From: an uncultured Sphingomonas sp. | GTDB taxonomy: Bacteria > Pseudomonadota > Alphaproteobacteria > Sphingomonadales > Sphingomonadaceae | NCBI GenBank assembly: GCA_913775315.1 | Contig: CAJYIX010000036.1 | Span: 1 to 54,417, forward strand | Length of the DNA stretch: 54,417 bases | Direction of reading: 5' to 3' | Shown: positions 45,862 through 50,806 of the stretch, one piece after another | How positions within the stretch are numbered: position 1 is the first letter of the stretch | How the letters are laid out: every line of letters starts with the position of its first letter | The notes under the pieces: model-generated | The model's database searches: none | What the model was told of the DNA's origin: nothing | Seen by the model: the letters and a program-made list of their open reading frames with translations, nothing else | Position numbers and translations under genes: made by a program

Positions 45862-46841
45862 CAGGCGGGCTCTCTCGCGAACGCAGCCTCGCCGGCAAGG
45901 ACGCGGGCGTAATCCTCCGGGTCGGTGTTGCCGCCCGACAGCATCACCAGCGTCCCCGACATCGGCTCGACCCGGCGCGACAGCAGCGCGGCTAGCGCCA
46001 CCGCCCCGCCCGGCTCGACCACCAGCCTGAGCTTCGCCGCGGCCCAGCGCTGCGCGGCGCGCACTTCCGCCTCGGTCACCGCCACGCCGTGGGCATCGCG
46101 GCGGGCCAGTACCTCGAACGTCCGCTCGCTGACCCGCATCGTCTGGAGCGAATCGCACGCGGTCGGCGGCGCATCGTTGGCGACCGGTTCGATCCAGCCG
46201 GTCTCCAGGCTGCGCGCCATGTCGTCCCACCCCGCCGGCTCCGCCGTCACGATCGCCGCGTCAGGCAGCGCGAGCGCAAGGCCCGCGGCCAGCCCGCCGC
46301 CGCCGCAGGGCGTCACGACGCGCGCGATCGGGCCGAACCCTTGCGCCTCGGCCTGCCGCGCTGCCTCGATCCCCGCGCTGCCCTGGCCCTCGATGATCCA
46401 GGGGTCGTCGAAGCTTGGCACCAGCACCGCGCCGCGCGCATGAGCGAGATGCGCGGCGATCTTCTCGCGACTTTCGGTCCGGCGGTCGTAACTGACCACT
46501 TCACCGCCCATGGCGAGCGTTGCGTCCCGTTTCACCTTGGGCGCGTCGGCGGGCATCACGATAACACAAGGCATGCCCAGCGCTCTCGCCGCCCACGCCA
46601 CCCCCTGCGCATGGTTGCCCGAGGAAAAGGCGACCACGCCGCGGGCGCGATCCTCCGGTGCGATCGCGGTCAGCCGGTGCCACGCACCGCGCAGCTTGAA
46701 CGCGCCCATCGGCTGGAGGCATTCCGCCTTGAAAGCAACGACTTGCCCGTGGATTTCCGCGGTCAGCAGCGGTGTCGGCGGCACCACCGCGGCGATCTTG
46801 GCGGCAGCGTCGCGGACGCCGGCGCGGGTGGGTTGTCGCAT
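45861..46841 (-). CDS. PLP-dependent threonine/serine dehydratase-type enzyme
   Basis: This fold-type II PLP enzyme of 326 aa is related to catabolic threonine dehydratase and serine racemase. The Schiff-base lysine is in MGAFKLRGAWHRL, the phosphate loop is TPCGGGGLAAGLAL, the SSGNHAQGVA block binds the substrate carboxylate, and VMLSGGNTD is near the C-terminus. There is no C-terminal ACT regulatory domain, so it is not a classical biosynthetic IlvA; threonine, serine, hydroxyaspartate or hydroxyectoine-pathway activity are possible. ATG 46841 is chosen; ATG 46862 is an alternative, and neither has a strong Shine-Dalgarno. It is divergent from the ornithine decarboxylase leader and overlaps the small membrane protein gene. 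Confidence 0.82.
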   Translation of the reverse strand: MRQPTRAGVRDAAAKIAAVVPPTPLLTAEIHGQVVAFKAECLQPMGAFKLRGAWHRLTAIAPEDRARGVVAFSSGNHAQGVAWAARALGMPCVIVMPADAPKVKRDATLAMGGEVVSYDRRTESREKIAAHLAHARGAVLVPSFDDPWIIEGQGSAGIEAARQAEAQGFGPIARVVTPCGGGGLAAGLALALPDAAIVTAEPAGWDDMARSLETGWIEPVANDAPPTACDSLQTMRVSERTFEVLARRDAHGVAVTEAEVRAAQRWAAAKLRLVVEPGGAVALAALLSRRVEPMSGTLVMLSGGNTDPEDYARVLAGEAAFAREPA

Positions 46842-46895
46842 AAACGTCACAAATCGTCCCATCGCCCAAAAAGCTGCGCAGAATCGCTTTACACC

Positions 46896-46999
46896 CAGGG
46901 GTGTGGACCCTATGTGCGCCCTCCGCTGCCCCATGGGACTTCCAACCGCAAGGCAGCTTTTTTCACCGTATGCCGAAAGGCAATTGGAGGTCCCTTGAA
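46896..46999 (+). promoter_or_regulatory. Structured leader of the ornithine decarboxylase gene (speF-type RNA candidate)
   Basis: An 11-bp helix can form between 46935-46945 (GGGACTTCCAA) and 46984-46994 (TTGGAGGTCCC), with one G-T wobble. It sequesters the GGAGG Shine-Dalgarno at 46986-46990. Inside it, TGCC-GAAA-GGCA (46971-46982) forms a GNRA-loop hairpin. A competing stem, GCTGCC (46925-46930) with GGCAGC (46952-46957), is followed by six T (46958-46963) like an intrinsic terminator. It crosses the first helix, so the two cannot coexist. A 28-codon ORF runs through the whole element. A conserved RNA called speF is known upstream of alphaproteobacterial ornithine decarboxylase genes, and this is probably a member, but no covariance search was possible. 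Confidence 0.7.
46912..46998 (+). CDS. Candidate leader peptide of the ornithine decarboxylase gene
   Basis: ATG 46912 opens a 28-codon frame (MCALRCPMGLPTARQ then LFSPYAERQLEVP) that ends at TGA 46996-46998, one base before the proposed TTG start of the decarboxylase. AGGGG lies about ten bases upstream of the ATG. Ribosomes translating this frame would unfold the helix that hides the downstream Shine-Dalgarno, so the peptide could control the enzyme by stalling or by coupling. This parallels the gammaproteobacterial SpeFL arrest peptide, although the sequence is different. A shorter version could start at ATG 46933. Reality is inferred from position, not homology. Confidence 0.5.
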   Translation: MCALRCPMGLPTARQLFSPYAERQLEVP

Positions 47000-48202
47000 T
47001 TGGCCAAGCATCATCGCGCGCTGGGGGTAGCTCGTACCCTTCGACCGGTTCAGCCGGTAACGCTGGTTCGTCCGCACGCTGCGGCTCGTGCGGCTCGGTT
47101 CTTCGTCGAGAGGTTCCCGGGCCGGACGCTCTATGCCGTCAAGGCGAACCCGTCGCCCGACCTACTCCAGATCCTGTGGGACAACGGCGTCACGCATTAC
47201 GACGTGGCCTCGATCGGCGAAGTGCGCCTCGTCGCGCGCACGCTGCCTGAGGCGACGCTCTGCTTCATGCACCCGGTCAAGGCCGAGGAAGCGATCGCCG
47301 AGGCGTATTTCACGCACGGCGTCCGCACCTTCTCGCTCGACACGATCGAGGAGCTGGACAAGATCGTCCGCGCCACCAAGGGTGCCGAGGATCTGACGCT
47401 GTGCGTGCGCATCCGCGTGTCGTCGGAGCTGTCGAAGCTCAGCCTCGCGTCGAAGTTCGGTGCGGGTCCAGGCGAGACCAAGGCGCTGCTGTTCGCCGCC
47501 CGCCAGGCGGCCGACACGCTCGGCATCTGCTTCCATGTCGGCAGCCAGGCGATGTCGCCCGACGCCTATGCCCAGGCGATGGAGCGCGTGCGCATGGCGA
47601 TCGTCGAGGCGGCGGTCACGGTCGACGTGATCGACGTGGGCGGCGGCTTCCCCTCGGCCTATCCGGGGATGGAGCCCCCGCCGCTGGAGCGTTATTTCGA
47701 GACGATCCACCGCGCGTTCGAGAGCCTGCCGATCAGCTATTCGGCCGAACTCTGGGCCGAGCCCGGCCGTGCGCTGTGCGCTGAGTACAGCTCGCTGATC
47801 GTGCGCGTCGAGAAGCGCCGCGGTGACGAGCTCTATATCAACGACGGCGCCTACGGCGCACTGTTCGACGCGGCGCACGTCGCATGGCGCTTCCCGGTGA
47901 CGCTGCTGCGCGCCGAGGAGAGCCGGGCGAAGGACGTGGCGTTCAGCTTCTACGGGCCGACCTGCGACGATCTCGACCACATGGCCGGGCCGTTCGACCT
48001 ACCCGCCGACGTCGATACGGGCGACTATATCGAGGTGGGCATGCTCGGTGCCTATGGCTCGGCGATGCGGACGGCGTTCAACGGCTTCGGCACCGACGAG
48101 ACGATCGAGGTGACCGACGAGCCGATGGCGACGCTGTACGCCGGGCTGGAGGACGATGCCGACAGCGGCAACGTGGTGCGACTGGGCGCACGGCGCGGCT
48201 GA
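47000..48202 (+). CDS. Ornithine decarboxylase, PLP type III (alanine-racemase fold)
   Basis: This enzyme decarboxylates ornithine (some homologues also lysine) to putrescine. The 400-aa product shows LYAVKANPSPDLLQ with the PLP lysine near residue 50, CFHVGSQAMSP, IDVGGGFPSAYPG (phosphate loop), AEPGRALCAE, and YGPTCDDLDHM, whose cysteine and aspartates are active-site residues across the dimer. Start choice: TTG 47000 has GGAGG (46986-46990) nine bases upstream and follows the leader ORF stop by one base. ATG 46970 is the alternative, but it lies within the leader stem region. It faces the two carboxyspermidine-pathway genes across a shared terminator. Substrate preference between ornithine and lysine is unresolved. 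Confidence 0.9.
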   Translation: MAKHHRALGVARTLRPVQPVTLVRPHAAARAARFFVERFPGRTLYAVKANPSPDLLQILWDNGVTHYDVASIGEVRLVARTLPEATLCFMHPVKAEEAIAEAYFTHGVRTFSLDTIEELDKIVRATKGAEDLTLCVRIRVSSELSKLSLASKFGAGPGETKALLFAARQAADTLGICFHVGSQAMSPDAYAQAMERVRMAIVEAAVTVDVIDVGGGFPSAYPGMEPPPLERYFETIHRAFESLPISYSAELWAEPGRALCAEYSSLIVRVEKRRGDELYINDGAYGALFDAAHVAWRFPVTLLRAEESRAKDVAFSFYGPTCDDLDHMAGPFDLPADVDTGDYIEVGMLGAYGSAMRTAFNGFGTDETIEVTDEPMATLYAGLEDDADSGNVVRLGARRG

Positions 48203-48280: not shown

Positions 48281-49486
48281 TCAAGACAACCGATCCCGAA
48301 ACGTCTCCCATCCGAACTCGCGCACCATTTCGAGGCTGTCGTCGCGCGAGTTCCAGAGCGCGATGGCGGGGAGCGGCACGCCGTTGAACGTCGTGGTCTT
48401 GACCATCGAATAATGCGCCTGGTCGAGGAAGGCGATGCGCGTGCCGGGCTCGGGCCGCTCGGCGAAGCGATAGTCGCCGAGGATGTCGCCCGCCAGGCAC
48501 GACGGGCCGCCGAGCCGCACGGGCACGCCGCCTTCCACCTCGCCCAGCATCGCCGGGCGATAGGGTGCCTCGATCACGTCGGGCATGTGGCAGGTCGCCG
48601 AAATGTCGACGATGCCGACGGGCATTCCATTGTCGAGCACGTCGAGCACCTCGCCCACCAAGATGCCGGCGTCGAAGGCGATCGCCTCGCCCGGCTCCAG
48701 ATAGACTTCGAGGCTGGTGTCGGCCTTCACCGCCTTCAGGAACTCGACCAGATCGTCACGCTGGTAGTCGCCGCGGGTGATATGATGGCCGCCGCCGAAA
48801 TTGAGCCATTTGAGCTGGCCGAGATACGGCTCGATCCGCGGCCGCAGCGCCTCCCACGTCCGGCGGAGCGGCGGGAAATCCTGTTCGCACAGCGTATGGA
48901 AATGCAGACCGCTGACGCCCTCCATATCCGCCGCCGTCAGCTGGTCGGCGGGGTGGCCTAGGCGCGAGTGCGGCTGGGCGGGGTCGTATTTGGGCACCTC
49001 CCCCTCGGCATGCATGGGGTTGAGGCGCAGACCCACGTCGAACGACGCGCCGCCATGCCGCGCGGCGGCAAGCAGGTCGGCGAAGCGGCGATGCTGGCCG
49101 GGCGAATTGAAGATGATGTGGTCGGACAGCGTCGCCACCTCGACCATGTCGCCGGCCTTGTAACCGGCGCAGAAGGTCGCGATCTCACCCTTGTAGTGTT
49201 CGGCCGCAAGCCGCGCTTCCCACAGGCCGGACGTGGCGGTGCCGTCCAGATAGCGCCCGACCAGATCGCCCAGCGACCACATCGAAAACGCTTTGAGCGC
49301 GAGCAGCACCTTCACCCCGGCGCGGTTGCGCACGTCGGCGAGGGTGGCGAGGTTGCGCTCGATCGCGGCCCGGTCGACAACGAAGCACGGGCTGGGCACA
49401 CGGGTCAGGTCGAAGTCAGCAAAGGCACCCGCCCCGCCCGACTTGGTCGTCATCGGCGAGGCGGCGCGGGTAACGTCGGGCTTCAT
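48281..49486 (-). CDS. nspC: Carboxynorspermidine/carboxyspermidine decarboxylase
   Basis: NspC is a PLP enzyme of the alanine-racemase fold that removes CO2 from carboxynorspermidine or carboxyspermidine. The 401-aa product has VLLALKAFSMWS (PLP lysine), a central SGLHFHTLCEQ, LNFGGGHHI, EPGEAIAF and ISATCHMPDVIEAPYRP. GGPSCLAGD near the C-terminus carries the active-site cysteine contributed to the neighbouring subunit. ATG 49486 was chosen; ATG 49453 is equally possible because neither has a clear Shine-Dalgarno. It lies 114 bases after the dehydrogenase stop on the same strand, with a family A repeat doublet between them, and converges on the ornithine decarboxylase gene. Confidence 0.9.
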   Translation of the reverse strand: MKPDVTRAASPMTTKSGGAGAFADFDLTRVPSPCFVVDRAAIERNLATLADVRNRAGVKVLLALKAFSMWSLGDLVGRYLDGTATSGLWEARLAAEHYKGEIATFCAGYKAGDMVEVATLSDHIIFNSPGQHRRFADLLAAARHGGASFDVGLRLNPMHAEGEVPKYDPAQPHSRLGHPADQLTAADMEGVSGLHFHTLCEQDFPPLRRTWEALRPRIEPYLGQLKWLNFGGGHHITRGDYQRDDLVEFLKAVKADTSLEVYLEPGEAIAFDAGILVGEVLDVLDNGMPVGIVDISATCHMPDVIEAPYRPAMLGEVEGGVPVRLGGPSCLAGDILGDYRFAERPEPGTRIAFLDQAHYSMVKTTTFNGVPLPAIALWNSRDDSLEMVREFGWETFRDRLS

Positions 49487-49498
49487 GTCGTCATACTC

Positions 49499-49594
49499 GT
49501 CATGCCGGACTTGTTCTGGCATCCACCGATCCGCTTGAGCGACGGGTGGCGGTGCTTGCGGAACGGTGGACCCCGGAACGAGTCCGGGGTGACG
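49499..49594. repeat. Family A palindrome doublet
   Basis: CGTCATGCCGGACTTGTTCT (49499 onward) and TGGACCCCGGAACGAGTCCG ending in GGGGTGACG (49567-49594) are inverted family A units about 40 bp apart. They fill the gap between the two carboxyspermidine genes. Confidence 0.7.
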
Positions 49595-49600
49595 TGAAGG

Positions 49601-50806
<1,206 letters not shown>

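Follow-up and report, generated by a model that had tools for sequence, protein, structure and literature searches.

The window, i.e., the whole stretch of 54,417 nucleotides analyzed here, carries a gene for a PLP-dependent decarboxylase of the Orn/DAP/Arg type, putatively an ornithine decarboxylase, and in front of it a leader in which two predicted RNA helices, a single Shine–Dalgarno sequence and the starts of two overlapping reading frames are packed together (Table 1). No NCBIfam model matches the protein at the cut-off, and the name “ornithine decarboxylase” is thus taken from the published section on the motif identified below, where the motif's genes are so annotated, and from the context. 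Two genes convergent to the decarboxylase, at 48281–49522 and 49601–50788 of the minus strand, have carboxynorspermidine decarboxylase (nspC) and carboxynorspermidine synthase, respectively, as their best NCBIfam matches, both below the curated cut-offs; the neighborhood fits a polyamine locus.

Table 1. Features of the decarboxylase leader and gene (positions in the window).
Feature	Coordinates	Strand	Basis or remark
Putative promoter: TTTACA 46888–46893, 17 nt, TATGTG 46911–46916	46888–46916	+	conservation in relatives
Earlier-proposed 28-codon ORF	46912–46998	+	judged not to be a real leader ORF
P1 5′ strand GCUGCC (pseudoknot helix of odc1)	46925–46930	+	pairs with 46952–46957
P2 5′ strand GGGACUUCCAA, anti-Shine–Dalgarno	46935–46945	+	pairs with 46984–46994
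Loop CCGCAA between the helices	46946–46951	+	invariant in 104 distinct genus sequences (A1)
P1 3′ strand GGCAGC	46952–46957	+	
Linker hairpin UGCC GAAA GGCA, small, variable	46971–46982	+	33 two-sided cells
P2 3′ strand with Shine–Dalgarno GGAGG 46986–46990	46984–46994	+	
uORF TTG AAT TGG CCA AGC ATC ATC GCG CGC TGG GGG TAG, MNWPSIIARWG	46995–47030	+	stop 47028–47030
PLP-dependent Orn/DAP/Arg-type decarboxylase, putative ornithine decarboxylase, TTG start	47000–48202	+	PF02784, PF00278

The first-pass annotation had described two mutually exclusive RNA folds in this leader, and the helices themselves are borne out by the letters: GGGACTTCCAA is fully complementary, with one G–U pair, to TTGGAGGTCCC, giving an 11-bp helix (P2) that covers GGAGG, and GCTGCC can pair with GGCAGC (P1), which is followed by six T (46958–46963). 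Their mutual exclusion does not follow, however, as the two helices cross yet have no base in common, and thus P1 and P2 can coexist as one H-type pseudoknot, with predicted loops of four (CCAU), six (CCGCAA), and 26 nucleotides. The six-nucleotide loop is a possible ligand or contact site. The minimum free energy fold contains P2 with a z-score of -2.0, and eight out of 200 shuffled sequences are equally stable, so that energy alone is weak evidence for this helix.

Comparison of related genomes provides a broader basis. The decarboxylase gene is present in 150 out of 151 genomes of the genus, and all 130 leaders fetched from these 150 genomes carry GGAGGTCCCTTGA, with CCGCAAGGCAG upstream, which places the long helix far beyond chance. 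Each of the 130 also has, 14 nt downstream of the first G in GGAGGTCCCTTGA, the TTG with which the decarboxylase starts, in a frame open into the gene; in the family locus L185, the start is ATG. We built a covariance model, R1, from the 104 distinct genus sequences of alignment A1, from which L017 was left out since it has no GCTGCC strand. This locus retains P2 and the double start, and may represent either a natural loss of P1 or an assembly break. Under the stricter Infernal filters used for more than 40 genomes, which lose weak matches, R1 matched 60 out of 64 genomes of its own family and none of 83 others in an order-wide sample of 147. Among the four misses of the family, G268 has no match to the gene, the copies in G271 and G273 are diverged, and that in G264 is altered further; the diverged leaders of the latter three keep the double UUG. 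Under the same filters, a class-wide sample of 385 genomes yielded five matches in the own family and three weak ones (L164–L166, E-values 0.002–0.004) in loci that contain no decarboxylase match, and these three were taken as chance. A pattern typical of the other genera occurs in at least 119 stretches of named genomes, and the 80 matches listed come mainly from Erythrobacter, Novosphingobium, Qipengyuania, Porphyrobacter, Croceicoccus, and their relatives.

P1 and the nine core pairs of P2 are intact throughout the genus, the sole variation being one P1 pair that changes from G–C to G–U, so that neither helix yields covariation there. In the linker hairpin, 33 cells are changed on both sides and 88.3% of cells are paired, the outermost pair being unpaired in 35 out of 103 sequences; this hairpin is missing or different in other genera. 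When the whole structure was compared with 500 shuffles, its covariation score and its number of two-sided cells were never reached, the number of two-sided pairs was reached in 14 shuffles, and that of further pair types in 475; two of the five structure measures do not clearly exceed the shuffles.

At the family level, 53 loci were parsed (L001, L212, L213, and 50 family loci), whereas four (L191, L209, L210, L211) were unparsable for P1 and P2. One P2 pair is U–A in 16 of these loci, U–G in 28, C–G in seven, and unpaired in two. Compensatory P1 pairs are seen as GCAGCC/GGCUGC in L186 and L189, and as GCUGCU/AGCAGU in L185; at this level, the choice of the P1 5′ strand, as the best among about 40 windows, itself favors pairing. 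P1 is only partly paired in L183, L190, L212, and L213, and between one and three positions of P2 are unpaired in L161, L163, L183, L184, L185, L187, L212, and L213. Support for the predicted pseudoknot comes from complementarity and, in a few relatives, from compensatory changes. In L210, GCCGCC/GGCGGC is seen by eye in place of P1, and in L186, L188, L189, and L190 a hairpin-like insertion lies between the 5′ strands of P1 and P2, which a pseudoknot tolerates; the MAFFT alignment A3 misplaced loci with such inserted hairpins, and it was excluded from the pair counts. One further pairing, between GCAA and the UUGC at the main start, was rejected by eye, as GCAA is constant while the codon following the start takes different forms (GCC, CAC, GTC).

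The second reading frame of the leader, the uORF, begins with UUG 46995, which precedes the UUG of the decarboxylase by five bases and lies in a different frame, and it ends 28–30 bases into the gene. We scanned 195 loci with a block-search pattern that fixes the letters of the uORF start but not of its stop (L131–L138 and L146 of the genus, mostly duplicates, as well as L164–L166 and L194, were excluded beforehand, and L132, L134, and L146 were checked separately). The pattern was found in 181 loci, the 14 others being those of the Rfam family RF00518 (L195–L208). A uORF with a stop is present in all 181: it has 11 codons in 178 loci, 10 in L119, and nine in L173 and L174, and ends in TAG (173 loci), TGA (five), or TAA (three). 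The pair of starts is TTG/TTG in 180 loci and ATG/ATG in L185, the pattern allowing only TTG or ATG. A uORF of 11 codons is found in 79 out of 80 further named loci, the remaining one having no stop within the stretch read. In L209, a family member, the uORF has 22 codons, and by eye a TTG stands at the usual position of the stop.

The stop codon of the uORF is under selection. All of 54 complete genes have a +1-frame stop at codon 10/11, whereas amino-acid sequence and codon usage together predict 2.6; +1-frame stops occur at a background of 2.1% per codon, and the highest value at any other codon is 25 out of 54. The conserved TGGGGCTAGC inside the gene might instead be the RNA pairing partner of GCTGCCCCA and not a stop codon, to which we give a very low probability: the two are by eye near-perfectly complementary in most genus sequences, but TGGGG is lost in other genera, where the stop stays, in three spellings. 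This long-range pairing (GCUGCCCCA/UGGGGCUAGC) is disfavored by the switching of stop codons.

Constraint on the encoded peptide is of narrower scope. Pairwise synonymous diversity in the same 54 genes is 0.03–0.14 in six of codons 2–9, 0.42 in codon 4, and 0.33 in codon 7; it is 0.33 in codon 10 and 0.67 in codon 11, with a mean of 0.39 for the rest of the gene. In 76 distinct genus sequences, the entropy of the overlap is 0.69, 0.31, and 0.31 at the first (third of the uORF), second, and third positions of decarboxylase codons, respectively. In 30 complete genus genes, the corresponding values are 0.50, 0.23, and 0.19 for codons 2–10, and 0.27, 0.20, and 0.85 for the rest of the gene; hence, the most variable position flips from the third of the decarboxylase codon in the rest of the gene to the first in the overlap. 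Elsewhere in the family there is no such flip, neither in 46 distinct sequences (0.88, 1.05, and 1.16 in the overlap; their source set, like that of the 51 “other” loci of the uORF scan, includes one same-genus genome, L144) nor in 24 complete genes (0.83, 0.78, and 0.89, vs. 0.48, 0.42, and 1.11 in the rest). The constraint on the peptide frame is thus visible only within the genus, and elsewhere the peptide varies in its second half.

These observations bear on the possibility, which we consider unlikely, that the uORF peptide is itself the sensor, i.e., that at high ornithine or polyamine levels the ribosome would arrest at the uORF stop and, about one footprint downstream, block UUG 47000. 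Ribosome arrest by a sensing peptide occurs at eukaryotic polyamine uORFs and at the enterobacterial SpeFL, and the near-constant length of the uORF, its conserved stop, and the codon constraint of its frame in the genus would be consistent with such a role. However, arrest is usually encoded in the C-terminal residues, and the C-terminal ends of the uORF peptide are clade-specific (ARWG, THWL, TPGP, TLRR); moreover, the codon-phase flip is not seen outside the genus, and versions of nine, 10, and 22 codons, as well as candidate six-codon versions, exist.

Taken with its two-start anatomy, the leader is, in our judgment with high confidence, a member of the odc1 (uORF-25-1) RNA motif. In their section on odc1, Brewer et al. 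(2021; PMC8632094) report 272 alphaproteobacterial examples, with a long stem that has the ribosome-binding site in its right shoulder, a pseudoknot joining the loop to the 5′ end, a pair of UUG codons with two bases between them, and an 11-residue peptide. The window copy is alike in all these respects: it lies upstream of an ornithine decarboxylase-type gene in an alphaproteobacterium, it has the extended stem with the ribosome-binding site in the right shoulder, its 5′ end is complementary to the loop, as is true of every one of the 104 distinct sequences in A1 (without L017), its two UUG codons, at 46995 and 47000, are separated by two nucleotides, and the overlapping uORF encodes an 11-residue peptide, here MNWPSIIARWG, a length retained in 178 out of 181 relatives. 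The copy in the published reporters is also from a sphingomonad, Sphingomonas echinoides (Brewer et al., 2021).

The element itself is already known, though little studied. A literature search, with most subscription journals outside its scope, found no further paper on odc1, the papers listed in a search for citations of Brewer et al. (2021) do not name the motif in their titles or abstract openings, and Rfam 15 has no match to the window copy. The selection on the stop codon and the peptide constraint limited to the genus, two clues to the mechanism, go beyond the odc1 section of that article, and so do the exceptions in length: the section states no variation of uORF length, whereas the relatives analyzed here include uORFs of nine, 10, and 22 codons and, outside the family, candidate six-codon forms with AUG.

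The first-pass annotation was right in seeing a structured decarboxylase leader with a Shine–Dalgarno sequence hidden in a helix and a short overlapping ORF in the control region; its label was wrong, the element being odc1, and the leader peptide is other than the proposed one. The label had been the alphaproteobacterial speF motif (RF00518), whose covariance model has no match in the window at the gathering score, none in 46700–47200 at E-values up to 10, and none in the own genome, the own genome set being searched under the stricter filters; membership was rejected on these searches. Like odc1, speF is found in alphaproteobacteria, in the leader of a gene whose decarboxylase belongs to the same broad family, the Agrobacterium tumefaciens construct spanning -400 to +3 (Corbino et al., 2005; PMC1273637, in its account of speF). 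However, of the 14 RF00518 loci found elsewhere, the eight where a decarboxylase was found encode proteins 28–31% identical to that of the window, and R1 does not match the eight RF00518 leaders searched with it at E-values up to 1. By eye, TTCCAACC..AAGGCA-like letters of the RF00518 leaders recall the odc1 loop, a resemblance without a supporting score. The spermidine riboswitch (PMC10853860), likened here by its description only, is likewise a polyamine-related RNA, but a variant of the SAM riboswitch.

Upstream of the motif, TTTACA is present in 145 out of 174 anchored leaders, and the hexamer 17 nt past it starts with TA in at least 133 of these 145; in 110 of the 145, 8 nt separate it from GCTGCC. 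Judging from this conservation, the two hexamers are a putative promoter, and the transcript would be expected to start at about 46922–46924, i.e., about at the motif; a strict sigma-70 scan found no promoter. The 28-codon ORF (QLFSPYAERQLEVP) proposed earlier as the leader peptide is present, from ATG 46912 to TGA 46996–46998, one base before TTG 47000. It does not stand as the leader's short ORF, since its ATG falls inside the putative -10 hexamer and since an ATG-initiated ORF upstream of GCTGCC is open to that TGA in 24 out of 174 loci; the conserved short ORF is the one of 11 codons from 46995. A shorter ORF from ATG 46933 was rejected as well: among the 130 genus leaders, 50 have its stop at the TGA before the TTG and 59 at a TAG about 30 nt past the TTG, while in 16 it ends elsewhere or has no stop in 300 nt, and five lack the ATG.

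The P1 stem had also been read as a terminator. After this stem, six T are found in 16 out of 179 loci, a run of four T in 94, and a T-rich tract (five T out of nine, with TTTT) in 92, and the presence of the tract in about half of the relatives means that a terminator is not a constant part of the leader; one could act in some species. A terminator scan found none, considering only loops of 3–8 nt, whereas the loop in the leader is 21 nt. A switch composed of the 28-codon leader peptide and the terminator, as a member of speF, therefore has in its favor that the ORF and the six T exist in this genome and that the T-rich tract recurs in relatives; the ORF count refutes it as a conserved device, and in view also of the scarcity of the six T and the lack of an RF00518 match we give it hardly any credence.

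In enterobacteria, the ornithine decarboxylase gene speF is controlled by a short ORF (SpeFL/orf34), which is a separate upstream ORF, whereas the odc1 uORF overlaps the gene start. The mechanism that we favor for odc1, and regard as rather likely to be the working one, is a choice between the two starts. The pseudoknot of P1 (GCUGCC/GGCAGC) and P2 (GGGACUUCCAA/UUGGAGGUCCC) would bury the sole Shine–Dalgarno sequence. Once P2 opens, the ribosome would start either at UUG 46995, 4 nt from GGAGG, producing the 11-residue peptide, or at UUG 47000, 9 nt from GGAGG, producing the decarboxylase. The conserved RNA would bias this choice, as seen only in E. coli reporters of the S. echinoides copy (Brewer et al., 2021, section on odc1), and the bias probably responds to a metabolite of the polyamine pathway. 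With its conserved stop, the uORF would make initiation at the first codon a short abortive event, and the enzyme output would follow the ratio of the two starts.

According to the odc1 section of Brewer et al. (2021), both starts of the S. echinoides copy work in lacZ fusions in E. coli, the uORF start being about three times stronger than the main one, and both yield more in minimal than in rich medium, with modest reporter levels. Mutations M4–M6 in the conserved bases beside the pseudoknot abolish expression from the main start, and the uORF start is barely changed by M4 and M5. The authors suggest a riboswitch that selects between the starts and do not name a ligand. Both the sensing peptide discussed above and a translational couple would be other mechanisms for the same two-start anatomy. 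In the latter, ribosomes finishing the uORF would re-initiate upstream at the decarboxylase start, and the fold would set overall access without any choice of start. The overlap of the starts, served by one Shine–Dalgarno sequence, and the higher expression of both ORFs in minimal medium agree with coupling; on the other hand, the uORF stop lies 28–30 bases beyond the main start, which would be far for backward re-initiation, and the M4 and M5 mutants separate the two starts. We thus regard coupling as improbable, somewhat more so than the sensing peptide.

If the start choice holds, putrescine synthesis in a large bacterial family is apparently governed in an unusual way, by an RNA that chooses between starts five bases apart. 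The selected stop, the frame constraint limited to the genus, and the exceptions in length open the question whether the peptide or the RNA is at work to direct mutational tests. In its fullest form the proposal is tentative, and we would not expect all of it to hold: odc1 might be a metabolite-sensing pseudoknot that chooses the start codon and does not switch access on and off, selection might act on the early stop more than on the peptide, and the version in another family (L212, L213) might have been reshaped, with AUG-A-AUG, a different frame, and a six-codon decoy.

In that other family of the order, a strong decarboxylase match was found in six out of 32 genomes. The leaders of L212 and L213, whose decarboxylases are 53 and 52% identical, respectively, to that of the window, contain GGAGGTC[CT]C-ATG-A-ATG, a six-codon ORF in a different frame ending in TAG, and a P1-like stem-loop; by eye, none of the remaining printed leaders of the family has such an arrangement. 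The scores of R1 on these two loci are not significant (E-value 0.41 for L213, and no listed match for L212). They are possible distant relatives of odc1, and, with two species, the likeness may be due to chance. Two other decarboxylase leaders of the other family, L233 and L235, contain letters resembling the Rfam families ar45 and speF (CGTACGTGCC..GCAACGACG and CGCACGTGCC..GCAACGACG), without a match at the gathering score. Finally, in L195, L196, L197, and L200 the matches to the ar45 sRNA and to speF adjoin each other upstream of the same decarboxylase, which suggests that they form one long leader.
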